Origin: Isoetes taiwanensis
Taxonomy: Eukaryota > Streptophyta > Lycopodiopsida > Isoetales > Isoetaceae
Length of the DNA stretch: 64,000 nucleotides
Assembly: GCA_021234155.1 (NCBI GenBank)
Contig: JAJEKV010000028.1
Location: 10,058,134-10,122,133 of the forward strand
Direction: 5' to 3'
In this document: piece after piece, positions 41,690-61,145 of the stretch
Position numbering within the stretch: position 1 is the first letter of the stretch
Layout: every line of letters starts with the position of its first letter
Notes under the pieces: generated by a model
Told to the model about the DNA's origin: nothing
The model's input: only the letters and a program-made list of their open reading frames with translations
The model's database searches: none
Translations under genes and position numbers: made by a program

Positions 41690-41848
41690 ACTCCCCTTGC
41701 ATGGAATTCTCCTTCTGAATCTGCATTTGTGAACTCATTGCTGCTTGTAACAAATAATCTAGTTTTAGAAAACCAGAACTTTGTTTAATGAGCGCTTACA
41801 TGAGTACATCACCGTCTCAAGGTACTGTAACTGTAAACTTTTACCCAA
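41690..41848 (-). pseudogene. Copia pol, extreme C-terminal part (left of the DNA transposon)
   Basis: On the minus strand the frame reads KFTVTVP, then DGDVLM, then ALIKQSSGFLKLDYLLQ, resembling the copia tail YVPTxDxLADxLTKAL...F..L. It continues the pol segment found at 60293-60812 beyond the transposon. Two stops break it. Confidence 0.55.
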
Positions 41849-41872
41849 GGGTAAAAGAAAGCTAGGGCGTCC
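41849..41872. repeat. Left terminal inverted repeat
   Basis: It begins GGGTAAAAGAAAGCTAGGGC. The outside flank CTTTTACCCAA makes the junction itself palindromic. Confidence 0.9.
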
Positions 41873-42162
41873 TACATTTGGCCAAATGTAGAATAAGAGA
41901 TGTATCACATTTCAAATACATAACTGTTTTTTCAGTATGTACATAATAACTATATTAAGGAAGTTTTTTTTTTTGGAATTACTTGCCACGTCAATTAAAA
42001 CGCAATCATGAAGCAGATTTCATTCCCGCCGCTCTAACCACTCCAAGAAACGCCTGAACGTTAGGAGAATTTCCCACTTTCTGGCTAAAACTTCGCCCAG
42101 CTCCAGGATTTCCCTCCTTCTTGCCAGAATTCCTCCAGCAAACCTTAAACCATGCAAGAATC

Positions 42163-45100
42163 ATGATGAACAACGAAAAAACAGAAATGGCGCAAGAAGT
42201 TTGCAATATCGGGAATGTGACAAAGAGAATGAAGCGTAAGATTGATGAAATTGTTAAATTTACATATGATCGGGTTCAAGATTTACGTCATGTGCAAAGG
42301 AGAGCTTTAGCAGTGAAAACTGTTCGGGATGAAAGGCTGCACTTCTTTTTTGAACCTACCATTGGAAATCCAGCGAAAGCAATTGTGAAGGATACCATGC
42401 TACAAAATATCCGGGAAGGTCTGCAGGAAGTGAAACAAGCAAATAGCAATGATAAATTAGCAGCTAAGCATTCCCTGTTATCAATGATTGTTGGTGAGAA
42501 TGGAAAACTCAAGCAAAAAGGAGTAGCCTCCACAATTCTTCAAGTGCAAGCAAGAAACCTTACAAAAGCTGCAATTAGAAGAAAGCGCATGTCATTATCA
42601 GCATTAGGGTTTTTTTAGATTAAAAAAGGGCGTTCAAAATATGCCAACTAAGCCAAATGAAAATAAATGAACTGCCAATCAGAAATCAGAGCCTGACGGG
42701 TCCAGTCAGCAAAACTGTGATAACTAACTCATTGGATCACATTTTCTAGCATAACTATTGATAGAAAAGTCCAAATGAGCTCTCGTTTAGTGCAAAAGAT
42801 AGATCTCATTGAGATCGTTCCAACCTTAGATGCTTTGCACATATTTTAATCACTTATGATTGTCAAAACTCCAAAAAATATGATTTTTACCATTTTTTAC
42901 TATCCTACGGGGCTAAAAGATATGCAAACCCACCCAAGGTTGGAAAGATCTCAATGAGATCTATCTATTGCACCAAACAAGAGCTCATTTGGATGTTTCT
43001 ATCAACACTTATGCTAGAAAATGTGATTCAGTGAGTTAGTTATAACTGTTTTGCTGACTGGATTCCAGTTCTGTTTTCTGATTGGTAGCTTAGTCAGCAG
43101 TTCTTAGAAGGCCCTTTTATGATCTCAAAAAATCCCTAATGGTGCTAACATGTGGGCACTGGCAGAAAGGCAACCCAGGGCAGACATGCTTCCGGAATCA
43201 ACCAAACACTTGGTAAATGATTTTTTGTTAACCCACACCAAAACTTCTACCAAGTACAGGGATGAAGAAAAGGACACTTCCAATCCAGTTTTTGGACATG
43301 CACCAGGTCAGTTTTAAGGCACTGACTGAGCTATTCTTAACAGAAAAAGTACTTCGATGTACTTTCAATCACATCCAATGTGGCAGATGGCAGAAAATGT
43401 GCTGAAAGTCAGGCTGTATTTTTATAGTCTCGGTTTCTGTAGTTCCCAAGCGTATGCTAGTACATTCTGAGCTTTCCTGAACTCAAGATACTGTTGAAAG
43501 ATAGGGTTATACATAAAAGTATTTACATGTACTTCCCACGTACATCTATAACACAGTGGCACTGTGTGTGACCTGGTTACATATTGAGTTTTGTATGTAC
43601 ATCTGGAATGCGTTGGAGTACATTTTCTACATATTTATACATATCATGTACATATTATGTACGATGATGTGTTCTAGTAGTTGAATGTATATCAAATCAT
43701 GGCCTGACTGTCATAGAACTAATGCAATGTCTGCAACATCTTTGAATTCGTAAGTAGTTTTAATTTATGTTTTACTTATAATGCTGCTTTTTTCCTTGCA
43801 GAGTGAATTATATGAGATGTTCAAAGATGAACATCCTGAAGTGAAGATTAGCGTCAGAATATTCGAGCTGCTTAAGCCTACGTGTGTGAGAAGGTTGAAA
43901 GAGAGGGACACATGCTGTTGCGTGAAGCATGAACAAGTTGAGCTATACAAAAAAAGCATTTCGCATCCTAAGGAGCAAATTTCATGCCAATTGTACGTGT
44001 TCTTGCGGTGTTTGTGCAGCATATGAGAATGATGGTGTCTGCCAAGCTCCTTCTAAAACATTTCAAAATGTTAGTGCTATGTGGAAAGCTACGGTCTGTG
44101 ACAAGGAAGGTGAAGAGTGGCATAGTTTGGACTGTGTCAAGGGAGAGTGTCAGAGCTGTGGCACTGAAAGTATTCAAATCTGTCATAAGGAGAAAGAGTC
44201 GCATATTGAAAACATTGAATGGCAAGTTTACAAGTACGTGAACGAGCCTTCCAAAGTTGGCACTTCAAGGAGGCTGAAGCTTGTTACTGAAAGCGGGAGT
44301 CCAGGTACATTGCTTGACAAGATGTTTCATCACCTTACAAAGTTCACTATTCACAATTTTTCAGCAAGTTGGCAGAGCAAACAATTCAAGAAATCAGTGC
44401 AAAATTTGAAGGATGATTCTGTTTTGTTAGTAATGGACTTTGCAGAGAACTATACTTTGCAGCCACTCAGGGAGGTTCAGTCCGAGCATTGGAACAATGA
44501 CCAGATAACTATTTTGGTGCACATAACTATGATGAAAGTCAATGACGAGCTGAAAAAAACTGTTCATTTGTATGTTTCCGATGTTATGAAGCATGATGCT
44601 TTCTTTGTTCAGGCTCACTCAAGAAACACCAAACTTGGATGATGCAAAAAGGTTTTGGCCACATCAAATACCATGTCATGTGGTCTGATGGGTGTGCTGC
44701 TCAGTTTAAGTGTTCTCGAGCATTTTATTTGAATGTAGCCCAGTATTATAACAGATATAGAATTAGGATGCAGTGGAATTATTTTGGCTCAGGCCATGGG
44801 AAAGGAGAACATGACGGGCAGGCTGCTTTGGAGAAAAGGTTCCTTGCAGATGAGCAAAGGAAAGAGAATGGTATTCTGATTTTGGATGCCAACTCTGCTT
44901 GCAGTTTGCTCAGACAAAAGAAGTGCAAAATGGACAGAGTCATATGGAAGGTCATGGCAGAAGACATTAACAGGGACCCTCGTTCAGATTGTGAGACATT
45001 GCCTGGTACTCTAGCTATACATTGTGTATCTGCTATTAATCCAGCTGACCCAACACTTGTCATGTATAGATCCCTGTCATGTTTTTGCAATGATTGCTTG

Positions 45101-45619
45101 AATTTCAGATGGGGAGAATGTGAGAATCTCCAGCATTATGGTGCGTGGAAGCTGCACAAACTGGAGCCTAGTTCGGCCCAGGTTGATGAACAAGAAGAGC
45201 TAGTTGGTTTTTATGCAGCTGATGAGCAAGAACTATCCGAAGTACTCCAAATTGGAGACATATTTGCATCTTTTGCTGCTCCAGGGAATCATGAAAATGT
45301 TCCATACTTCGTCCTCCTATGCGTGAAGGAGATGCATACTCTTCAGGAAGATGTGATTGACGACTATGGAAATAGAATGCTTGCTGGTGACAGGGTTATA
45401 GCTTGTCATTACTATCAAATGCTACAAGGCACAAACCACAAGTACAAGTTGTTGGATGACAAAATAGTATTGGTACCAGCTGAATTTGTAATTGGAGCAA
45501 AGTTCACCATGCAGCAGGTCAAGCATAAGTTGAAGGGGGCACGTACAGCATATATGATCACACGAGAGGTGCATGACATGCTTATATCAAGCCTACCTAA
45601 GATTGTTGAGTGCATATGA
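42163..45619 (+). pseudogene. Transposase, DDE/D-like, with C-terminal BAH-like region
   Basis: Coding pieces are 42163-42601 (MNNEKTEMAQEVCNIG...), 43142-43306 (ANMWALAERQPRADMLPE, ending before GTCAGT), 43802 onward after TTCCTTGCAG, and up to 45619. A Cys-rich stretch (CTCSCGVC...CQSCG) precedes the core. The likely acidic residues are in VLLVMDFAENY, WSDGCAAQFKCSRAFY and FGSGHGKGEHDGQ. The SDGxxxQFK and HGKGxxDG motifs are shared by a widespread family of eukaryotic transposase-like proteins. A C-rich CFCNDC...GEC segment follows. The end region (DIFASFAAPGN...DRVIACHYYQML) resembles a BAH-type chromatin module. One-base frameshifts lie in the A7 run at about 43950 and near 44612, and a foldback element splits the first and second pieces. 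Confidence 0.8.
42602..43141. mobile_element. 540-bp foldback MITE inside the transposase gene
   Basis: Arms of about 200 bp pair with roughly 85 percent identity. Examples on the left are CATTAGGGTTTTTTAGATTA, CCAGTCAGCAAAACTGTGAT and TAGATCTCATTGAGATC. The reverse complements on the right are TAATCCC-type, ...AACTGTTTTGCTGACTGG and GATCTCAATGAGATCTA. The centre is about 42870-42900. No coding capacity. It separates two transposase coding segments. Confidence 0.8.
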
Positions 45620-46093
45620 CAAAGTTCTGTACAAAGAAACTTTCATATTTGCCATCATCTTCTGTTAAGTCTAGAAAACTAGTCGATTTCTGCAAGTTCT
45701 TTCTTACTTATTTTTTACTCTAAAGTACATTTTGATACTTCAATTTCAGTATCACACAATATCTTCTGTTTCCAAGCACAATGTAAATCAGAAAGTATAA
45801 AATGTTCATCAACTTTGCATCAAGAAGTTAAACTATTCTGTGAACTTGTTCTGTTATAAAGGATATCAATAGCTTTGTTCTGTGAATAGCTTTTCTTTTG
45901 ATTCATGAAACAAAGCAGAAAGTGCAACATATAGATCGATGTATGGAGACAAAAACTCTTGTATTAGATATCATAACAAGATATACAACCTGTTCACAGG
46001 AGATATGAAGCCAGTATATACAAGTCTGTTGTTCATGTTTTAACATAACATTAAATTACATTCAAAATCTGGCACAGTCGATGTGAGATTGTT

Positions 46094-46757
46094 TCAGTAT
46101 GTTACTTTCTTGCAGCTTTTCCATAGCCCGGACATGCCATCTCTATCCCTGTAGCCATCTGAAATCATTTGCCTCCATACAGCCGTTGTTAGTACGTCGA
46201 TTGGATTGCATAAAGGGTTCTGCTTCATATACTGTTGCAGGTCTGGTGCTAACAACAGGCCCTCTAGCCATGATTTCAAAATTGTCAAGAGACCTGTGTC
46301 TTCCACATCCTTTTCTTGCCATGAAGGTGGGCATATGCAATTTTCGGATGAATTGAAAAGCATCTTGTACTCGGAGTCGTCTACTATTAGTGTGTTACTC
46401 TCATTCCTGTCCGGATACTTCTCGTATATAAACTCAATTGGCTTCAGATACAAAGGTTTATCTTCAAAAGGTGCAATTCGGAAAGGCAGCTCCAAACAGT
46501 TGCTTCCATCAAAGGTGAATCTTAAGTCCCTTATCTGCGTCATTGTGAAGATTTTATCCAATACTCTTGATAGGTTCCATGGAGCTATTGATGACCATAT
46601 TCCTACTTCAAAGTGTTCAAATACAAATTCGAGGAATTCGTCTAGGTGGGGCCTTAAAAACAACTATGTCATAGTTTCCAACTAGCTGATCATCTGCTAC
46701 CAATGTCCTATGTAATTGTTTTGCCAAAACATTATTGATATCAAACACTATCAACAT
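46094..46757 (-). pseudogene. FCP1/SCP-like HAD-superfamily phosphatase ORF carried by the transposon
   Basis: From the ATG at 46757 the frame reads MLIVFDINNVLAKQL (HAD motif I, DxN instead of DxD). After a two-base frame slip in a short T run near 46655 it reads RPHLDEFLEFVFEHFEVGIW followed by SS (motif II). Next come LRFTFDGSNCLEL and then NTLIVDDSEYKMLF (motif III), ending at 46094 with a short basic tail. This is the FCP1-homology fold. A subgroup of plant FCP1-like HAD proteins has Asn at the second motif I position, so a captured host gene is likely. It is intronless here, lies between the transposase and the protease gene, and is downstream of and on the same strand as the latter. 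Its role in the transposon is unknown. The frame slip probably inactivates this copy. Confidence 0.7.
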
Positions 46758-47252
46758 TTTCTGTACACCTGCTATAAAAGAACATGCAATTTATCAATAA
46801 AGTATGGTGGAGTTGAATAAAAAGAAATTTTATTCATTAAAATTCAATGAAAACATGTATGTTTTACAATCGAATAGTGTTTAGCAGTGACAATGGGGAT
46901 AGGCTTTCTCAGCCTCAGTTACTAGTACCAGCTGGTCTAATAATTTCGGGAGCGATGTGAATGTGGTCTAACTCCTGAAGTAATGCTCGGATGAGAACAT
47001 CACGACGATCCTCCATACTTTGGCAAGAACCAGTTTCGGGTAATCTGCAAATGTGACAACCACACTTAGATATTGGAAACTATTTGTTTGCAATACAAAA
47101 GGCATGAGACACTCACATTGGTAGTTTTGCCACACACGATGGTGTCTACAAACTTCTGCATATAAGTTGTAATATAGAGGCCACATGAATCCCCATCTTT
47201 CTGCTGTGGACACTTATGAATCTTCACAACTGGTGAAGGGTTTTGTCCATGC

Positions 47253-47843
47253 TGTTTGGGGTCTGGGTTCGGGAACTCCTGCAAGACAGCCCTCTGTGAG
47301 GACCCTTGGATCAAACAAGAGAATCAGGTAGCTATATCACGGGGGATTTGCAAAAGAACAAAAGGAAGGAAAAAGAGAGAAGACAAAAGAAAAGACAAAT
47401 GAGAACACAATGATGATAATAGAACTCCTTGATATCAATGAGAATACATGAGCTCTCTCAATAGAGAGAAAAACAGAGTGGAGACAAGAACCAAAAACTC
47501 ATCTAGCCCTCGAATGTATATATAGTACAATGGCCTTTGGCCCAATATAGATACTCTGTCAGATCTCGGTGCCGACTCCTGGAAGGAGGCCTGATTTGCA
47601 GGAATGTTGGCGGTGCCTCTTGAGGTGCCTGAAATCATACTGACGCTGACGGCCCGTCACTTGTCTGTTCTCTGCCGCTTCTTTGGCATGGGCATGGCCT
47701 TCTGCGTGGCCTTTTGCTGAGCCTTCTGCTGGGTCTTCTGCGGGGCTTTTGACGGCTGACCTGGACCTGACTGTGGCTCCTTGTTCTTGACCTGGTCTGA
47801 GGTGTGCATGAATAGTCCTATACCAGAACGTACAGGACTAACA
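47253..47843 (-). repeat. 3' LTR of the gypsy element
   Basis: 591 bp. It differs from the right LTR by scattered substitutions and small indels (for example one has an extra GCCTTCTGCGTGGC-type unit near 47697-47730), so the insertion is not brand new. Confidence 0.9.
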
Positions 47844-47864
47844 CTCCCCCTACCAAACAACACT

Positions 47865-50864
47865 CAGGGATGAGAAAAGGGGGAAGAGTCTCTGAAGGTG
47901 GAAACCCAGCAACTTGAAAGTCACCCTGGCGTGTATGAGGGCGGTTGCCAGAGTGATAGTTGGCAATAAGATCTTGTCTTGACGTGAGAGCTTCAGGAGT
48001 GTTGAGACCTATTGCAGGATGAGCGTCAATGAGAAACCCAGAGTGCACCATTTCCTCAAGGGCACGGTGTGCTTCAGCAGGGACAAACTGGCATTCCATG
48101 AGAAGGCAGGTCTGAAGGCCGAAGGCACTGACGCTGGCATTCGGGTTGCAATAATAGATAGGATGTTGTCTGGCAAGAGAACTCAGCAGAAGGCACTTTA
48201 AAGCAACACAAAAACCTGCTTGGCGGAGAATAGATGGATCCCGGGAGGTGGCAGCACGCTCCAAAAAGAGATCAAGGCCAGAGACAACATGAGTGGGCGT
48301 ATGCCAACCATGCTCATTAGGGATGTAGATCAAATTTTCAGTGTGCTCCAAAGTAGCACCATTCTCCCAATTAGAGCGGCAAACAAAGCGTGGATCCCAG
48401 CGGAGATCTGTGGAGATCTGAGGAGGAGTCCACCCAGCATGGCCTTCCAGGACCTTAGTCCAAAAGGGAAGACACCAATCCGAGGTGAGATACCTGGGGC
48501 GTGGTGGTGCACCCAATGAAGCATACGGAGATTGAGCCATGCCCGTGGGCATGGGCTGCTGGGCCTGCTCCCTGAATTCACGAACAAGATCTGCATCAAG
48601 AGCACGGCACCACTGGTCCCAATCAGAGCCTGAGAGCATGTTATAAAGGGGCGGGGAGACCCAACCCGTGGGTATAGTCTGACTGTCCAGAAAGGCACGC
48701 AGCGTGTTGTAGCCACCCAAGTGCTGTAAGTAAACTTGAGCAAACGGGAGGTCCTCAGGATGAGCTAAGTTCTTCCGCACCTTGTGGGTGCGTCTCTGCT
48801 TGCCACAGAGGGAGGTGATGAGCAAGCTCAGGCATGTACCCAGTGCGTAGAGTGTTGGACCGAGCAGGATCCTGTAAATATGGATTGGTTTCTAATAACA
48901 ATCAGTGAGCATGAGGGTTGACTTGAAAAATTCGATGGGCCTCATCTAAGAATTTATCCTGTGTATCGGCCAGATAAAAATCATGAAAGATATAAGCCAT
49001 AGGCTGAACAACACGGAAGATGACCAAATCGGAATCCTCACAGTGGAGTTGATCAAAGACTAATAGGGCACAGAGTAAGCCTTTGTCTTCAATAGAAAGG
49101 TCCGGCCAGATCCGGAGAAAATCCTCGCTGCCCAGGGGCGCATTAAGCTTGCCGTTTGCCGAATACCACTTGAGAAGAAATAGATGGCGTCGAGCAACCA
49201 CATAATCCAGATAACTGGAAGGAGTAAAGAAGTCCGTAGGTATGCAGAGAGCAAGATCAATATATACCTCATGTTGACACTGGGCTTCGTCCGCAGATTG
49301 AACAGCTTGCTGGAGTTGATTCTCCAAGTCTCGGATCTGATTATCTTTATCAGCAAGAAGACGGGACTGATCACGGAACTTCCTGTGAGAGAGCGTGGCC
49401 TGTGAAGATGAAGGCACTTGAGTGGAGCTTTGAAGCCAAAGTGTGACAATTTCTGTATCATCAATGATCTTCTGCTTCTGGGCTTCAAGGAGTTGAGCCT
49501 GGAGAGGCGTGACCTGACTGTGCAGTGTGGAAAGTTGGTCTTCGAGAGAAGTGATGCGCACATTTCGCTCACCAAGTTCTTGGAGCTGGTTGTTGTAATT
49601 CTGAGAGAGCTCCATGTACATGGTTTGGAGATCTGCAAGGAGTTTATCCTTATCCTTGTTGGTAGCCAGTAATTCTCGAATAGTTGACTGTAACTGAGCC
49701 TGTTGATCAGCGAGCAGGCTAGTCTGTTCATGTTCAGTCTTGAGAGCTTCAAGGGCCTGTAAAAGAGCCGCGTGCTTTTGTTGAAGACTATCTTCAAGAG
49801 ATTGAATCTTGATGGTGGCAGCCTGGAAGTCCCTATGAAGTGCTTCCGTGGTCTCCATGTAACCTTGAATTCCGTTCATGAAAATTTCTTGAGAATCTTG
49901 AAGCTTGAGCATGACAGCTTGGACATCCTGTTGGTATTGATAAAGAGTTTGTCTGGACGGTGGATGTGCAGGGCCCGGTTGTCGATTAGACTGTGACGCC
50001 TGAGAAAGATGATGAGAACTGGAGTGTACAGTTTCAGTGGAGGAAGAGGAGACTGTCACAACAGGTTCTTGATGTTGAGCACGATGAGGAGGAGGAGAAG
50101 GCTGGGGATGTGAAGTGTCGACATGAAGGTTTTGGTCAACAGGAATGGGATTGGAGGGCTGTTTGGTGGATGCTCGAGACGTGGTATTTGGATGAGTGGG
50201 GGAACCCTGACTGGGGAGAGGGAGAGAATGACGGAGGATGGCCTGCAGTAGATTCAAGGCTCGAAGAAGGGGTTGCTCGGATGTGATCAATTTCATGAAG
50301 GAGGCGGAGGAACAAAATTTGAGGCCAATCAATAGAATGGGTGGAGTGGATGGCCAAGACAACAATGTTGAAAAACTGCTTATTTATGTGGGTATTCTTG
50401 ATGGAATAACCATAGAACTTTCGCCACAGAAATTTGACAAAAATATCATGGGATTTGGCAATGTTCGTGAGACGATGAGTGTTGGCCTGATAAGGAAGTT
50501 GGCCATACTTGGTGACATCCTGTTCCTGTAAAGCAGCCCAAGACAAAGAAGGCCTGCGAAGAGGTAAATGGAATACCTGAGAAAGAAGACCTGGAGTGAA
50601 TAAAATATCTGTCTGATCGACTCTGGTGGCATAGCCCGCTGTGGTGTTGACTATGTTAGCAACAAACTGCCTGAGTTGAGGCGGATTTGGGGCAGGGAGT
50701 TCCTGCCTAGAGAATTCATACAGCCCGTGGCGTTCTGCAACTTCTCGACTGGGACCTTCCAGGGCATCACGAAAAGTAGGAGTGGAAAAAGTAACAGACT
50801 CAAAAAGAGCTGGATCCCTGGGAGCAGCAACCTGAAGAGTAGGGAATTTTGGTGAAACAGCCAT
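47865..50864 (-). pseudogene. Extra coding region of the gypsy element (long coiled-coil protein)
   Basis: It starts at the ATG at 50864 (MAVSPKFPTLQVAAP). The frame changes near 50290, runs on through a Pro/Ser/His-rich linker (about 50000-50250) and a long Gln/Leu-rich coiled coil (about 49270-49920), stops at 48902, and resumes in the 48825-47865 frame (AHPEDLPFAQVYLQHLGGYN onward). The product would be near 1000 residues before decay. It sits where envelope-like or other additional ORFs lie in some plant LTR elements. However, the coding part has no signal peptide or membrane segment, so an envelope is unlikely. Function unknown. Confidence 0.6.
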
Positions 50865-51748
50865 GGCAAGAAACGAAAGAAGGAAGCGCGAGAGCAGATT
50901 GAAGGAAGCCGGAGGGCGGAGAGCGGAAGACGAAAACAAAGTAAGGCGAAAAGGCGTTATGGCACACGGCTGTGGCGAAGCGGCATGACGAAAGGGAAAA
51001 GGAGTCGTTGATGGGGCCAGATGGCAACAGATCAGAAAAGAGCGCTTGAGAGGCAAAATTTTGGCTGAGTCCCCGAGTAGTGAAGGAAAGACCAATGAAC
51101 GGTGGAGATGGAACGTGAATGAACGGTAGGATGTGACAGCTAGACGAAGGTACAAATAATAATGACAGACGGGTGTGAAAAGAAGGAAGAACATTTAATA
51201 CAGGCAACTCGAAGTGGGATATCATAAAAAGGAATTGTCAGACAGTACCATGGCTAGATATGCGGCGGGAGAAGAGATTCTAGATTTAGAAATAGCCTTG
51301 CATTGCAACCACCTGTTTTGATTGGTCCACGTCGGCAGAGCTCCAAGCAGTTGGGCTATATAAGACGAGCAGTGGGTGAAGCGGAGACACCAGTTTGCAG
51401 CGATGGAGCAGGAGTATACTATGCCGCGAAACTGCCAAGAGTGGGTAACCTGTAAGATGAACGCCCTCGACCTCTGGAAATGCCGCAATTGCGGTACCCT
51501 ATGGACGGCTGGTGTGGTGGGATGGCTGAGCATCCCGATCCGTTAACAAACGCTATGGAGGTGGTGTTGCATCTGCGCTGGGATCCTGAGCAAAACCTCT
51601 ACCATGTCCTCCGTATAACCTCTGCTCCAAACCCGGAGTAGGGGGACTGTTTACCTTAGGATTTTTTAAATAGGGCTCTGCCCATAGCGGATATATATGG
51701 GCAATGCCCACTTTTGTTTTGCGCCACTAATATAATATAAATATGCTT

Positions 51749-54297
51749 CTAGTCACTTTGTTCTGTTTCTGAATGTTGTTGTTGATCTTCTGAAGGAACT
51801 GTGGTAGCTTCTGTATGAAATTGTTTTAGTAAAAAACCATTAACCAGTGTAGGTAATGGAGTGCCATCTAATTCTGCCAGTTTGAAAACACTGGGTTGCA
51901 CTACTTGAATAATTTGATATGGAACCAACCAGCGAAACTTTAATTTACCCAAAAAATTTTTATAACGAGAGTCATAAAGCAGAACCAAATCACCTTCTGA
52001 AAGGTTTTGGCTTTAAGATGTTTGTCATGCAACGATTTCTGCAACTGTTGGCCATGAAGAACACGAATATAAGCATCTCTCCTAAGTTCATCTAACTGTT
52101 CGAGTTGATAAACCCTTTCTGTAAGAGCTGCATGTGGATTATGTGCTGTAGCAAGTTGGAAATGGAGAGTCGGAAGGATATATTCAAAGGGCACACAGCT
52201 GATTTTAGCAGGATCCGTGATGATGCCTTCTTTACTAACCACATGACCCAAAAGAACACCGGAGGTGACGCAAAAGGTGCATTTCTCAGGATTTAGACTG
52301 ATGCCAGACTCATCACATTTCTGAAAGACCAGCTCTAACTTCTCCAAGTGATCATCCATGGAGGTTATCCTTCATATAGTCTTGAAAGACCGAAAGCATG
52401 ATGCGCTGGAACGTGAATGGAGAGTTTGATAAACCAAAAGGAACCACCTTATAGGCAAAAGTGCCCCACGGGGTGGGATCTTCTGGCTTGATAAAAATTT
52501 GATTGTACCCTGAAAAGCCATCCATGAAAGAGTACATCTCATGACCAGCAACTTCTTCAAGAACCTGGTCTGTGAAGGGAAGCGGAAAGTGATCACGCTC
52601 CGTGGCCTGATTGAGTTTGCGGTAGTCCACACAAACGCGGATCTTACCATTGTGCTTGAGAGCAATGACGATGGGACTCACCCATTCAGAGTGTTTGACC
52701 TCATAAATCAAGCCAGCAGCTAAAAGTTTGTCAATTTCGGCCTTGACACAGTCTCGATAGTTTGGGTTGAGCCTGTACTGTCGTTGCTAGATTGGGCATG
52801 CGTCAGGTTTGGTAGGAATGGTGAGTTCCCCCAATTCCTTTTTGATACCTCTAAGGTCTTTGTAGCTCCAAGCAAAAATATGTTTGAATTTTTTGAACAG
52901 CGTCACAGCGCGTGCTTTATAAGTGGGTGGAAGATTAGCAGCTAGGCGGACGGGTTGATTGTTACCAATGTCCACGATTTCCACCTCAGGAGTTTGGATA
53001 TGTGGAACAACCTCCGTGTCCTGAACATGATGAGCAGGAGGGTGAAGCATGACAGGAGAAGCAGCATTTTGAGTAGTGAAGAAAAGGGGCTGCTGAGTGT
53101 CATCTAGCAATGGTTGCTTCATGACGGCATGAACATCCACTGTCTCTCGAGGAATTTTCGTGTCCGAAAAGTGGTCAAGACGTTGAATTCGATTACAAGG
53201 AGCCAGGTAAGGGTCAAGCAGGGCGGCCACAGCCTGATCCTGATCCAACTCATCTCACCCCAAGGATCAGCATACTCAGGGTAGGATGAGAGAGGTAGAC
53301 TCGCGGGTGGAGCCTGAACATGATAGATATTTTGTGCTTCTTCAGAATCAGTGTCTGAGATTAATGGTCCGGCATTCTCAACAGAGATCAATTTTCCAGT
53401 TTCCAAATCCATAGTGGCATTAAGATGTCCATCTGTAATGACAAGTTGGTCTGTGGCCCAGTAATGAATACTTTTAGCCTGGCGGAGAAAATGTCTGCCT
53501 ACAAGCATTTCATAGTCACCTGGATCTTCTCCAGCTTTCCAAACCCCAAATTCCAAGGGGAATTTGAGATCATCAATGCTGATGTGGAGGAGAGAAGTGA
53601 CGCCTTGAGGTCGTGTGATATGGTCATTGGCCAACTTGATGTCATAGGGGGCACGGTATAGTTGTTTGATCCTCAATTGTTTCCTGAGCTTATCAGTAAT
53701 AAGATTGACTGCACTGCCTCCATCAATTTGAACATGATTGATGTGGTGATTGCCCACCGTGGCATGCACCGTGGGAGTGGATGTTGCCACAGCTCCAACC
53801 AGATTAGTGGGAAGAGGCAACTGATTTATGAGAGCAGGACAGAGTTTCAAAATGGTGGCTAGGCTCAAAGGAATCTTGATCTTGGCAAGTTCTTCTTGAA
53901 GTTCCAATGGAACGTGAGAAAATGGATGAGCAGGATCCAAAGGAGCAGGAGTCTGTGGTAAAGAAGCGGAAACCTCTTTGAGAAGCTCCACCTCTGCAGC
54001 AATATTTAGATACGGCTGAGACCGTGTAGTTGTAGAGGACGATGGTGCCTCCTGACACTGCTGAGCTCGAGTTGTGGCATAAACATTTGCCAGTGTGCGG
54101 CCTTCCGCAGCCTGCATGAGTTTGAGAATACTCTGTCTCACCTTGGGCATGACGTGTGGCATGAGTTTATCTAGGTCAGGCGCGAAATGAACTTTTTTGT
54201 CATCTTCATGTGGTACCGTCTCTACAGCAAAAGCTGGTTGCGTGTCATAAGGGATGATGGTCAAGGGTCGTGAAGCCCGGGTCTGGCGTGAAACCAA
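51749..54297 (-). pseudogene. Gypsy protease, partial reverse transcriptase and integrase C-terminus
   Basis: The protease motif is QIDGGSAVNLI, with VGRHFLRQA downstream. Reverse transcriptase starts at FAWSYKDLRGI, then IRVCVDYRKLN, YSFMDGFSGYNQI and FGLSNSPFTFQRIM. The stretch that should carry YxDD is missing between KDNLHG and LEKLELVFQKC. After GIITDPAKI the frame jumps directly to an integrase tail (LDELRRDAYIRVLHGQQL, then the GDLVLLYDSRYKNFLGKLKF block and VNGFLLKQFH). RNase H and the integrase catalytic core are therefore deleted at about 52205. Several frame changes also occur. Confidence 0.85.
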
Positions 54298-54328
54298 ACC
54301 AACCCATTTGACGGCTGCACCGGAGGGT

Positions 54329-56100
54329 TTAGTGCCTGGTAGATTTCCTCTTGAGCTTGTTATCCAGAGGATTTGAGGTAGATGCTGGTTGCTGAGGTCT
54401 CTGTTGTTGAGGCGGTCGTTGAGGCTTTCTCAAAATAGGACGTGGGCCTTGTTTCCCATTAGCAACCCACAGTTGATAGGCCTTGAGGCGTACAGATGCA
54501 GGTTGATTCGTACCGGGAAGTTGGACTTGAACTTGGGGAAGTTGAGGGCACGCCGTGGTGGTATGACCCCATTCATGACAATGATAGCATTGAGTCTTGG
54601 AGGGATCAAAAGGAGGACGGGAGCTTTGTCCCCATGACTGCTGAGGTTGTTGCGTTTGTTGATACTGTTGCGGTTGTTGAGCTGGATACTGCTGAGGTTG
54701 TGGAGCGTGATACTGTTGAGTTTGGTGAGCTTGATACGGCTGAGACTGATATGGTTGTTGTTGCTGAGGCGTGGTCTGTACTTGAAAAACCATTTTATTC
54801 CAGAAGGGTGTAGGATGAGAACGAGTGCATTCCTCCGTGGCATGATTGCACATATTGCACCGTTTACAATGAGGAGGTCCGTTTGAGGAGTTGCATTCAT
54901 TGGCCAAATGTCCTTGATATTTATAGATATGGCACCAGATCTGAGAACGTTGTGGGTTGGTTTGTGGGGGTTGGACGACATTCTGAGGAACCATGACGGG
55001 GGGCATGAAAGGTAGTTCCGTGAGAGCAACACCTCGAGAGGAAACATTGACCGAGTGATTGACAAATTCAATCGCCTGCTCCAAAGACTTGGGACGCAGG
55101 TACTCCGCCATGAGACGAATGGCAGGAGGAAGGCCCTGCAGAAACCAGACAAGAATCTGGCTTTGCGTGGGGTACTCCTGGAGTTTACTGATGAGGATGT
55201 GAAGTCGGTCGGCAAAATCACGCGCAGACTCCGTGGGTTGCTGCTGAAGATCATTGAGTTGCTTGAGCAGGAGTTGATCATCATCTGTGGTGCCATAGTG
55301 AGAAAGGAATGCGGTTTTCATTTCTTGCCAATTTTGCTTCCAGTGGCTTTTGTTAGCCATGAGCCATTGATGAGGAGCGCCTCGCAGCGTTGTGGAAAAG
55401 ATATGAAACTTTAGTTGAGGTTGAGCATGACCATTGAGAATGGCCAAGGCCTCGAATTCCTCCATGTGTGCTTGAGCACTTTGGTCTAGAGGTTTACCTT
55501 TCGTGTTTCCAAAAGTAGGATATGTCAGCTTCAAATTGTGATTAGGAGATGAAGGCGGAACTGGCGCATAGATGGTGGTGTGGAACGGAAAAACCCGGAG
55601 GGCCAGAGAATGGGACTTCTTGTGGAAGGACCCTGAGATCCCGCCTCAGTGGGCTTGAGATCTGTGAGTTGGTAGACAGGAAGAGCATTCTGAAAAGATG
55701 GTGAAGCCTGAAATTCATGAACATGGGGAGGGCCAAAGGAAACTTGAGGGTAGCCCATCCCAGCAGGTGGTGAAGAAAGTTGCGAAGGTAGAGGGGTGTG
55801 GCCTGAAGGTATGGTAATATAGGTGCTGTCTGGAGTCTGGAAATAATGAGGCGTGGGCTGAACAGAGGTATGATGTGGCGACTGGGGTTGAGAACAATGC
55901 CGACACACAGGGGAAGACCCTGGTCGAGAATGAGCGCGAGGAGTAGGTGGTGCCGACTGAGCTCGTGAGCGGACACGACCTCCCTCAATGTCATAAGCAT
56001 TGTCATACATGTCCCGAACAGCCTCGCGACGTTGATGGCGCTCCAAACGAGCCGCCATTTGGCAAAGAAGGTCTTCAGGGGTGAAAGCACGATGAGACAT
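54329..56100 (-). pseudogene. Gypsy gag
   Basis: The N-terminal frame (MSHRAFTPEDLLCQMAARLE) is Arg- and Pro-rich. After a frame change near 55550 the frame 55534-54329 carries the retrotransposon gag core (FSTTLRGAPHQWLMANK, MKTAFLSHYG, LQQQPTESARDFADRLHILI). A Gln/Pro-rich linker follows, then the zinc knuckle CYHCHEWGHTTTAC (C-x2-C-x4-H-x4-C). An earlier C..C...H....C cluster (CKRCNMCNHATEEC) lies upstream. Gag would package element RNA. Confidence 0.85.
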
Positions 56101-56143
56101 GATGGAAAGAAAAAGGAAAAATTAGACCCGGCAGCGCCGACAG

Positions 56144-56716
56144 TGTTTGGGGTCTGGGTTCGGGAACTCTTGCAAGACAGCCCTCTGTGAGGACCCTTGG
56201 ATCAAACAGGAGAATCCGGTAGTTATGTCACGCGGGATTTGCAAAAGAACAAAAGGAAGGAAAAAGAGAGAAGACAAAAGAAAAGACAAATGAGAACACA
56301 ATGATGATAACAGAACTCCTTGATATCAATGAGAATACATGAGCTCTCTCAATAGAGAGAAAAACAGAGTGGAGACAAGAACCAAAAACTCATCTAGCCC
56401 TCGAATGCTAGCTCTACTCATATATATATACCTTTGGCCCAATATAGATACTTTGTCAGATCTCGGTGCCAACTCCTGGAAGGAGGCCTGATTTACAGGA
56501 ATGTTGGCGGTGCCTCTTGAGGTGCCTGAAATCACGCTGACGCTGACGGCCTGTCACTTGTCTGTTCTCTGCCGCTTCTTTGGCGTGGGCGTGGCCTTCT
56601 ACTGGGTCTTCTGCGGGGCTTTTGACGGCTGACCTGGACCTGACTGTGGCTCCTTGTTCTTGAACTGGTCCGAGGTGTGCATGAATAGTCCTGTACCAGA
56701 ACGTACAGGACTAACA
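56144..56716 (-). repeat. 5' LTR of the gypsy element
   Basis: 573 bp, paired with 47253-47843. The minus-strand start is TGTTAGTCCTGTACG. Confidence 0.9.
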
Positions 56717-59700
56717 CATGCTTCAAGAAAGTGGGACACTCGACACAACCGCATGCCATAGTGAGGATGTGGAGCCTGCAAAAGACCAGATCAACTCTAT
56801 AGCAAATGAATGAAAAAAGCTGCTAACATGGTATCCAATCTAGTCAATATACTTTAATAAAAGGAGATGTGAAATACAAAATACCTCTTAAGTGTAACCA
56901 TGTCAATGTCAATGTCCTCGGCAGAATTGAAGATCTGAATATTAATGGTGTTCTTACTCTTAGTAAGGGTCATGTTGAAGATGGCCAAAGTGTGATGTTC
57001 AGTAACAGCACATAGCATTGGAATCATAATCCATCTGCACTTGAGCCAATTTATCCCTGTAAGAGCTCCCTTTACAATATCTCTTCCATGCTCGGAGGCC
57101 GCCATAGATTTATCTTTTTCGCTTGCCTTGCAGTGTGCTGCAAATTCCATGAAGCTGTCCGGTGGGAAGAACCAGACGTCGGCCTTCTTATCTGCAGGAA
57201 CACAGAGCTGCAGGTACCTATAACAAGTTGAAAAAGATAAAATTACTAACATGACTTACATAAACAAATGCATAAGTTCAAAATTCAGCACCTGGCATAT
57301 ATATCCACATGCCGGTTGAAAAATTTTCCAACATCTAAGTCCAGCACATCTTGTTCAAATAGACAACACTCCATTTCAGGCAAAGATCCAAGAAATATCC
57401 TTGCCTTCTTCAGCTTCATCATTCAGTTGAGCAAAACATCATATGGCCTGTATTCAGAACTACAGTCTGGGTTCAATGACCAGTACATTTCACACAAATT
57501 CATCTACATTCGTCTGCTATTATCCACAGTATTTTTTAGTTTTTAACTTACATACTAGATGTAAATAAAAAAGTAAGATATGTAGATCAATTTACCTGTA
57601 GAGATCATTCCTATGCTGTTCTGATACTGTTTTCTCAAAGTCAGTATCCATTTCCTTCCCTTCTTCTTCGGTTTCCTCACTTTTCAGACTCTTCTTAGGT
57701 CCTGAATCCTCGTCTTCAACCTCTCCGGATCTCTCATTGTCATTAACTTCAACCTCCTTTACTATGTTAGAAGCAAGATTTGCCACATAGTCAAGAGTAT
57801 CCTGCTCTATATTTCCACGCTCGGGAGATTCCTCTTGATTAGGACCTGTAAACATGGATGGCATGGACTTCTCAAATGCTGTACCCTGAAATAAAATGCC
57901 TTCTTACCTGTTTCTATTGGTTTTATTTTCTTCTTCTGTGCCTTCTTAAGCGTGGACTTCTTCTTTGGAGTCACATTTTCTGCTGTTGCCTTAACTTTTT
58001 CAGATGTGGCCTTTGCCTGCTCTCTCAATCTCTCGAGTTCCTCGTCATAGTCTGGAATGTCACCATGCGCACTTGAAGTACCAGCTTCCTCAACCTGTAT
58101 CACGATAGGAATAGTGTGTTTGCTTTTTCCTTCAATCTTTCCCTCGGCTACATCTTCTTGCACCTCAATTTTTTTTGAAAGCTCCAAAACTGTGAAAACC
58201 GAACCAAGAATCAGAAATTGCTTCTTCCAACACAATGCAAAACAATTTCAATAAGCGCACCTGATCTGCGGTGTAGCTTCTGCTCAGATTTTTTTTGGCA
58301 CTTTGAAGCTCTAAAAATAAATCGCCATATAACAATCAGATATCAGTCTCTAACTATTCTGTTGAAAAATATCAGTACATATTATTAGAATTGATCTACA
58401 TTGAAGTACTATGAGTACATATACATGTAAACAGCTATTTATCTAGATGGAATGTACATGTAATTATCTAGATGGAATGTACATAAAATGTGCTCCAACA
58501 AAACTCAGTACACAACTCCTAATTTTATGTATTAATGTTCTACATCTATGACCCTACACTGTGAATATACAACATGTATGTAAGAAACACATATATGTAT
58601 GATATGCAAGCTATGGAACTATAAGTATAAATAACCAGTACACTCCTACATGCTATAGCAAAACCTTAAGTGCAGCAATGCACATGTAAATGGATTCTAC
58701 ATTGCAGTAATCCTGGGTGCAGCAAATTAAACATAGATTATGAAATACTGCTTACCTCCAGTGTACACACCCAAGATCTTTGAAATGTTTTCATCCCATT
58801 TGCATGCTTTTGGGCAGGATAGTCTAGCAAAAATAGAATATGAGAAACAGAAGACATGAAATGAATGCTCGCATGGAGCAACTAGGATAGGTTCATTATT
58901 AGCAAAGCCATTACTACAAAACACACATCCATGCACAGATATGAATTTTTCTTGAGCTAGAGAGATCACTAAGCTTGTTTTAGGCTGAAGGAGAATCGCT
59001 GCAGAATGCATCATGTACTTATGCATATCATCAAGCAAGCTGTCTGCAGCACTCAAACTGAACTTTATGAGCCTCCTCAAGTTCTGCAATCCCCTTTTCA
59101 CATAACTCCTTTTCCCGAATGGCTTTCTCCAATGGCTCCTGAATTCTCTTCAACATTTCTTCCTTCCTGGTTCTATTCCTCATCAAAAGGTCAATCTCCT
59201 GCTGCACATTCTTGATGTCCCTCTTGTTCTGCTTAGCGTCGTCAAGAACACTATCAATGTCTTGTTGAATCTGTGCTAGGTCCTCTTCATCTGCATCCTT
59301 TCTTCCTGAAAACTTATTTATGTTGTCACGTAGTTCTGCCTGCTGATTTTTCAGTTCTTCAACCTTGGAAGAGCTGCTAATTAACTGTCCATGGCACTGC
59401 TGCAACAGAGTTTCTGCAAATTGAAGGTCTTCCTTAGGGTAAAATTCTTGCTGCAATTTAAGAACCTTGGATGTGGATTTAGAGGTCCCAATTTCTTCTG
59501 TGATAGCAGATTCTTTTGCTCCTCCTTTGTCAAATCTTTGGCCAAAACTTTAAATATATCCCAATCTACTTTTTTACCTGTTAATTGAAGGGCAAAGGCA
59601 CGAGCAAAGTACTCAGGTACATGGCGATTGGTGACCTCCCGTTTACCAAAAACAATTCCATAATGCTTGTAGAAGTTCTCAGCCCACTCTGGCTTCACGC

Positions 59701-60268
59701 TAGATTCTTTGAACCCCCTAATGTCTTTAGGCCCCCACTGCTCGTGCATGATCTGTTGTAAATCTGGAAAAATTTCTTCTGCATTGACACATCTTACATG
59801 CTTTGCTTCCACAACAGCGGGTTCTTCAGAAATAAGTCTTCTTTTTTGATATGGTTCTTCAAATACATGAACCTTCCTCTTGTTTTTTTCGGCTTTCTTG
59901 CTAGAATCGACTGTTTTCAAATTCTTATTTAATCTGGGTGACTTCCGGGAGGCAAAGGCGTCCATTGCTTGGAAGGATTTCAAGGAAGAATAACAAAATG
60001 TTGTCCAATTGCTTCTCTGATCGCACAGAACACCAGAACTTGGAAGGGCGGCAATTTTTTTCCCAAAGAGGAAACACGTTGCGATCTCTCTCCAAAAAAT
60101 CGCAATGAACGTCTTTCCTGGTTGCCACTACCTCTCATAATTTTGAATTGATGACGTGGCAAATCCTGATGATTACATATCCCAACTAACTAAAATTCAA
60201 AAAACAAAAAACAAAAAACGGGTGCCTACATTGCCCTACATTATACATAATGTAAAGGCATTTTTTTT

Positions 60269-60292
60269 GGACACCCTAGCTTTCTTTTACCC
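60269..60292. repeat. Right terminal inverted repeat of the DNA transposon
   Basis: Reverse complement of the left terminus with one mismatch. Followed by CCAA. Confidence 0.9.
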
Positions 60293-60812
60293 CCAACACC
60301 AAATTTATGATAAAAGTGCATTTCCCATCTCAATATGTTTTGTCCTTTCATGATGTGTTCGGTTTTTGGCAATCGCTATGCAACTCATATTGTTTGAGTA
60401 CAATTTTGTTGGCGTCTTCTGCACAAAAACCAAGTTCTTTAAGCAGCCTGCTAAGCCACATAATTTATTTTGCTACTGAGACACATACAGCATATTCTGC
60501 TTCAGCTTAGAATGGAACAATTGAGGTCTGTTTCTTACTTCTCCAAGACGTTGGACAATCTGCAGGCATAACCACATATCCGGATGTTGACATTCTTGTG
60601 TCTATATCCCCTCCCCAATCTGCATCTACAAAAGCATTCAACTCAAGGGTACTGTTTTTACCAAAGTTGTTTGTTAAGCCATTATCCATTGTGCCTTTTA
60701 AATATCTGAGAACGTGTTTTGCAGCAAGCCAATGCATTCTTCCTGGATTATTGCAAAATGTTCTTAGCAGATTAACATCATATGCAATGTCAGGTCTGGT
60801 ATTATTTGATAC
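60293..60812 (-). pseudogene. Copia reverse transcriptase/RNase H fragment (right of the DNA transposon)
   Basis: On the minus strand: NTRPDIAYDVNLL, MHWLAAKHVLRYLKGT, LNAFVDADWGGDID, STSGYVVM and SWRSKKQ, then (frame broken) AEAEYAVC, MWLSRLLKELG and IAKNRTHHERTKHIE. These are the ordered hallmarks of copia RNase H. The sequence runs into the transposon end at 60292 and its continuation is at 41690-41848. Confidence 0.85.
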
Positions 60813-61145
60813 ATATAAATATAAATATAAATATATTGATCAAGCCATTTAGGGCCCCAGGCCTCTATGGCAAAAAGATACAAGATTTATTGTTCAAGAC
60901 GCTCAATCCAGAGCACATTCTAACTCAAAATCTTTCATGAACTCAAATAGATTCATTATGTCTTTTCTTTCTTGCCAAACAGCCTTCACATACGAGCTTA
61001 AACGATGTGCTGGTATATCAAAAAGATCTTTTAGAGAGGTTACCTGGATATAGACATCACGAATATGTGCATAAGAAGCACAAACAAGATTGCATATTAA
61101 ACGGGAGCAAATCATCGAAACGAGAGCAAAAGAAATATTCCTCAA
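60813..61145 (-). mobile_element. 5'-truncated LINE 3' end (same family as 24831-28800)
   Basis: The frame SLKDLFDIPAHRLSSYVKAV, then WQERKDIMNLFEFM, matches the ORF2 C-terminus at 24.97 kb (SLKDLWNVPYNKLSSYIKMV). The 3' end CCCTAAATGGCTTGATCAAT is followed by a (TTATAT)n tail at about 60813-60838, abutting copia pol. Confidence 0.8.

Follow-up and report, generated by a model that had tools for sequence, protein, structure and literature searches.

The element at positions 41849–60292 of the 64,000-nucleotide stretch of Isoetes taiwanensis DNA analysed here (the window) very probably represents a multicopy family of DNA transposons of the cut-and-paste type, with a length of about 9 kb and with accessory genes that are under selection. 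Besides a predicted DDE-type transposase, the element encodes a NIF (FCP1/SCP-like HAD) domain protein and a protein combining a RING with a C48 part that resembles SUMO proteases. There is strong support for the accessory genes moving together with the element, and four lines of evidence indicate that they are both carried along and selected: the gene content of copies fetched by their termini, genome-wide linkage, dN/dS ratios, and the recurrence of gene pairs in sister families.

Architecture and condition of the window copy

The element is bounded by 24-bp terminal inverted repeats at 41849..41872 (plus strand) and 60269..60292 (minus strand), identified by repeat detection and a genome-wide terminus search. 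The two termini of the window copy are 96% complementary to each other, and the target-site duplication CCAA, read from the sequence, flanks them at 41845..41848 and 60293..60296, so that both the inverted termini and the flanking CCAA described in the first-pass annotation are present. The length of about 9 kb before a nested insertion, given in the same annotation, agrees with the 8,975 bp calculated from the coordinates once the retrotransposon is subtracted, and the proposed layout, with a plus-strand transposase convergent on two minus-strand genes, holds in the window and recurs in other copies. In the left flank (41838-41857), CTTTTACCC mirrors the terminus and creates a 20-bp palindrome. 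The mirror was rejected as a part of the element, since it was not seen in the 150 bases at either end of the 20 loci from the 16 other terminus pairs. A minus-strand frame at 60507-60839, beside the element, resembles by eye a Ty1/copia RNase H fragment and had no Pfam match.

The transposase gene (42163..45619, plus strand) consists of exons 42163-42601, 43141-43306 and 43802-45619, with an intron at about 43307-43801 and splice sites placed by eye. Its product contains the motif blocks MDFAENY, WSDGCAAQFK and GHGKGEHDG, the last two of which are kept in the transposase of a distant relative, L066. The assignment to the DDE-type transposases draws on such motifs read by eye, since the protein had no Pfam match above the cut-off (the best, with E 0.0045 in the N-terminal frame, was to TPR_Sec16, an unrelated family), nothing in the PDB matched it at E up to 10, and AlphaFold failed on the single sequence (mean pLDDT 35.8). 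Pfam includes models of DUF7869 and KDZ transposases, neither of which gave a match with E at or below 10. Viral contigs yielded no match in one search and no confirmed relative in another.

The NIF gene lies at 46094..46757 on the minus strand, a range that does not include its 5' exon, and has a frame break near 46663. The earlier reading of this gene as a HAD phosphatase is borne out by PF03031 (NIF) with 54.3 bits in the window and 44–67 bits across the sequences tested, against a cut-off of 21.8, and the relatives found in the PDB are UBLCP1 and CTD small phosphatases. In NIF/FCP1-SCP phosphatases the catalytic motif I is DxDx(T/V). The NIF of the element departs from this canonical form: its motif I is DINNVL both in the window and at 16 of the 19 other fetched loci scanned (it was not found in the remaining three, L048, L060 and L066), so that the first Asp is kept and the second is replaced by Asn. 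With DxN in place of DxD, the protein may have weak catalytic activity or may function in phospho-binding.

The RING-C48 gene, also on the minus strand, is divided into a 5' part (56717..59965), which encodes a basic N-terminus, a coiled coil, a RING-H2 (58796-58927), a charged linker and the C48 His exon (about 56857-57255), and a 3' part (46915..47252) with the Cys exon (CPQQKDGDSCGLY) and a predicted 3' end and splice sites. The RING matched zf-RING_11 (E 8.1e-6) with 25.9 bits, just below the cut-off of 27. PF02902 was matched with 20.3 bits, just below 20.7, by two exons spliced together from copy L064 rather than from the window; the previous identification of a RING together with a C48 protease agrees with these matches, which fall slightly short of the thresholds. 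The RING-H2 pattern is C-x2-C ... C-x-H-x2-H-x2-C ... C-x2-C. All eight ligands are present in the window and in L042, L050, L064 and L065, with the last pair spaced C-x3-C; the RING is damaged in L041 and L043, and the other loci scanned gave no match to the search pattern. The active site of C48/Ulp1 proteases is formed by His, Asp, Gln and Cys. The element retains His, Gln and Cys and has Asn (FNS) at the usual place of Asp, in both subfamilies described below.

Clusters of TACAT/ATGTA motifs are found in the left subterminal region (41870..41960), in the transposase intron (43310..43700) and in an intron of the RING-C48 gene (58250..58700), with a smaller cluster in non-coding parts of the latter gene (57250..57600) and weaker motifs in the right subterminal region (60190..60260). 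Dense TACAT clusters were not found in L066.

The window copy has been heavily damaged. A Ty3-type LTR retrotransposon of 9,464 bp (47253..56716, minus strand; gag PF03732 and RVT_1), which is not part of the transposon, is flanked by the 5-bp duplication CATGC (47248-47252 / 56717-56721) and splits the C48 part of the RING-C48 gene; its insertion site is uninterrupted in four other copies. Inside a transposase exon there is an insertion of about 539 bp with inverted repeats (42602..43140), which is absent from L042, L046 and L050; it carries CATTAGGGTTTTTTTAGATTAAAAAAGGGC at its left end, and no clear duplication was seen around it. Reading-frame breaks occur in all three genes, those in the last transposase exon near 43945 and 44640; neither these breaks nor the 539-bp insertion appear in the first-pass annotation. 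Given these frameshifts, the 539-bp insertion and the 9.5-kb retrotransposon that interrupts the protease gene, the copy in the window appears to be dead, and working proteins are probably no longer made from it. Among the copies fetched whole, none looked intact in all three genes, as judged from fragmented matches.

The terminus family and the linkage of the three genes

A search of the same genome (1.658 Gb, 1,110 contigs) with the 24-mer terminus, suggested as a check in the first-pass annotation, found 892 forward and 848 reverse places (1,740 in all) at up to three mismatches; the reversed pattern, used as a control, gave 1 and 0. When the best 100 of the 1,740 places were taken, fewest mismatches first, 19 facing pairs no more than 25 kb apart were found, the window included, and 62 of the 100 had no partner among the places listed. 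Twelve of the 18 pairs outside the window (those of up to 10 kb) were examined whole and four longer ones at their ends. Of these 16 pairs, 14 are flanked by exact 4-bp duplications, as are the window (CCAA), L064 (TAGA), L065 (GATA) and a miniature element, the MITE L036 (CTAC), which makes 18 of the 21 copies tested overall. The three without an exact duplication are L041 (GCAA/TTAA), L045 (GAAA/GAAG) and the 320-bp MITE L007.

The MITE L036 (L036:1501-1739) is 239 bp long and consists of both subterminal regions joined to each other; as it too is flanked by a duplication, the ends of the element appear to be sufficient in cis. The MITE-like L007 (L007:1501-1820), whose left end carries GGGTAAAAGCATGTTAGGGTGTACC, is a further relative. 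A tandem array of GGGTAAAAG, repeated six times every ~4.67 kb on contig C6:278319-301676, is apparently unrelated to the element.

Matches to the transposase, NIF, RING and C48 were found in all 11 copies of 8.7–9.1 kb fetched by their termini, which substantiates the earlier suggestion that the accessory genes move with the element. It had been allowed at that stage that the termini might never flank these genes elsewhere or that the accessory genes might occur at this locus only; the termini do flank them in other copies, and the accessory genes do occur beyond this locus. The twelve whole copies are 87.9–94.1% identical in nucleotide sequence to each other. The twelfth, L048 (5.4 kb), has matches to the transposase and the RING, and none to NIF and C48; it carries an exact duplication, and the gene loss may postdate its insertion. 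Two copies found through their NIF genes, L064 and L065, have both termini and all the genes, and L065 represents a second subfamily (B) with the terminus GGGTAAAAGAATGCTACGG. In L063 all three genes were matched, with only one of the termini seen within the fetched stretch.

These copies bear on the idea that two unrelated transposons, one nested in the other, merely mimic a single three-gene element. The locus does contain nested insertions; however, the gene set, its arrangement and the length of about 9 kb recur in 11 of 11 copies at other sites with other duplications, and the subfamily B copy L065 has the same structure. The idea was ruled out on the recurrence of the structure in all 11 copies, and we regard its likelihood as negligible.

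Linkage was also assessed genome-wide, from the best 150 of 4,724 NIF, 119 of 8,987 transposase and 150 of 794 C48 candidates. Among the matches listed, 83 transposase places with at least 58% identity were assigned to the family, and 36 more distant ones had 45–53%. NIF lies within 6 kb of 53 of the 83 family places and C48 within 8 kb of 39; both accompany 30 places and at least one accompanies 62, while 30 places lack NIF among these matches. The chance expectation is about 0.001 NIF per transposase. All 54 NIF-transposase pairs listed, L066 included, are convergent, and C48 occurs within 6 kb of 87 of the 150 NIF places, in all 87 cases upstream and on the same strand. Of the 36 distant transposases, only that of L066 had a NIF or C48 neighbour among the listed matches to the window queries.

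Selection and sister families

Gene segments were compared between subfamilies A and B by the Nei-Gojobori method with 200 bootstraps (95% intervals in brackets). The dN/dS values were 0.38 (0.24–0.67) and 0.48 (0.30–0.80) for NIF, 0.27 (0.14–0.56) and 0.19 (0.06–0.45) for the C48 exons, 0.16 (0.08–0.25) for the RING with the coil, and 0.11 (0.05–0.21), 0.34 (0.20–0.55), 0.26 (0.16–0.40) and 0.28 (0.16–0.49) for transposase segments. Shorter NIF pieces gave 0.40–0.52 in five A-B pairs, and 0.13–0.41 within subfamily A, with one pair at 0.78. Upper bounds were below 1 for all A-B segments tested, and the A-B values over both analyses range from 0.11 to 0.52; such pairwise ratios from damaged copies are likely to be biased towards 1. 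NIF and RING-C48 have descended together with the transposase in both subfamilies and were under purifying selection, which indicates that they serve the element.

Sister families were sought with the distant NIF and transposase of L066, which are 48–66% identical to those of the window in the matched pieces. After places taken for the window's own family had been removed by hand, the sister sets comprised 49 of the best 150 NIF places and 102 transposase places (157 matches, 149 candidates scored). Among these matches, six sister NIF-transposase pairs no more than 10 kb apart were found where 0.06 were expected, all of them convergent: L066 itself and two others form an L066-like group, and the remaining three are deeper (NIF 34–38%). 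The other 43 of the 49 sister NIF places had no transposase nearby among the matches listed. A search of the genome with the Pfam C48 profile identified 52 places. When these were compared with 114 sister transposase places, six had one at a distance of up to 20 kb (0.14 expected by chance) and four of the six had it within 6 kb (0.04 expected), again all convergent; 46 of the 52 had no sister transposase nearby among the 114 places listed. In L066 itself no C48 was found. NIF and C48 thus each recur beside deeper relatives of the transposase, perhaps in different combinations.

About 100 of the 150 scored PF03031 candidates have 61–80 bits; most have open frames of 200–430 aa, and they are scattered across many contigs. 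In a comparison with the 114 sister transposase places, not one of the 150 candidates was as near as 20 kb. The 61–80-bit candidates possibly represent another NIF-bearing mobile family.

The accessory genes could also be passengers, that is, pieces of host genes caught once by transduplication and copied without a role. Plant MULEs and CACTA elements are known to carry transduplicated ULP genes, according to the available text of PMC2528002 and PMC13317346; L048 has an exact duplication without NIF and C48, a loss that may have come after insertion; and the genome has other NIF genes, those PF03031 candidates above 100 bits being probably host genes. However, the dN/dS of the accessory segments is clearly below 1 between subfamilies, all 11 copies of 8.7–9.1 kb keep the three genes, and convergent pairs recur in sister families. 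We therefore consider mere passengers unlikely, and selected accessory genes remain the preferred explanation.

Affinities and possible roles

In the proposed transposition pathway the transposase would bind at the termini and at the TACAT motifs of the subterminal regions, excise the element, and insert it at weakly specified 4-bp sites. The 18 exact duplication sites have 35% G+C and no fixed base, and this composition bears on the classification of the element. Kolobok and piggyBac were rejected, as TTAA is found in none of the 18 exact duplications, and only the inexact L041 has it, on one side. In the parts of PMC9587614 at hand, Kolobok elements make 4-bp duplications, as here, and form several lineages with differing accessory genes, and in KolobokP a further gene lies downstream, encoded by the complementary strand, which can be likened to the present layout; nevertheless, Kolobok inserts at TTAA.

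Membership in the Sola superfamily, with an unusual cargo, is conceivable, although we would not call it probable. As outlined in the available text of PMC10741241, Sola elements encode DDD transposases, make 4-bp duplications, are mostly 2–9 kb long with variable inverted repeats, and have been reported in a moss, while they are not common among flowering plants; cargo, namely Fanzor1, can be present in Sola2 elements (PMC3627910, in part). The element resembles them in its duplications, size, inverted repeats and extra genes, a likeness by description only. On the other hand, the Sola2 elements in the same portion of PMC3627910 occupy AT-rich sites of the AWWT type, unlike the duplications found here, and the portions of both papers that describe Sola name neither NIF nor RING-C48 as cargo, both of which are present in this element.

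Genes for ULP1/C48 proteases in plant transposons are already known. Kaonashi MULEs and CACTA-ULP elements, the latter from grapevine, carry such a protease, as does the element described here, and in KI-MULEs the ULP gene is in reverse orientation, like C48 here (PMC2528002 and PMC13317346, in the available parts). KI-MULEs are non-TIR MULEs, in contrast to the present element with its 24-bp TIRs and 4-bp duplications. In comparison with the Kaonashi and CACTA-ULP elements as portrayed there, this element differs in that its protease protein bears a RING, in that it has a NIF gene, and in that Pfam recognises no Mutator or CACTA transposase in it. The word "phosphatase" does not occur in the available text of either source, and no precedent for NIF as transposon cargo was found in searches of the open-licence literature. 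The new features are NIF as cargo, its DxN motif, and the TACAT/ATGTA clusters, both subterminal and intronic.

We tentatively suggest, with less than even confidence, that the element belongs to a superfamily of its own, in which NIF and RING-C48 would form a selected, modular counter-silencing kit and the TGTACAT-type arrays (subterminal and in two introns, ~1–2 kb from each end) would be putative internal sites at which the transposase or a regulator binds. An action of NIF and RING-C48 on the host in trans is likewise a speculative proposal, possible and somewhat doubtful. The C48 protease might remove the SUMO attached to chromatin silencers or to the transposase, possibly accompanied by a RING-dependent ubiquitin or SUMO ligase activity, and NIF might act on or bind the phosphorylated tail of RNA polymerase II or a similar substrate, so that the element stays expressed.

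If the accessory genes counter silencing, this eukaryotic DNA transposon, present in high copy number, would come with a toolkit of its own for modifying proteins and would provide a natural source of proteins that disturb SUMO and transcription. The family offers a testable case of a phosphatase-like gene retained by selection within a transposon. It also cautions that, in such genomes, NIF and C48 "genes" may in many cases belong to transposons.
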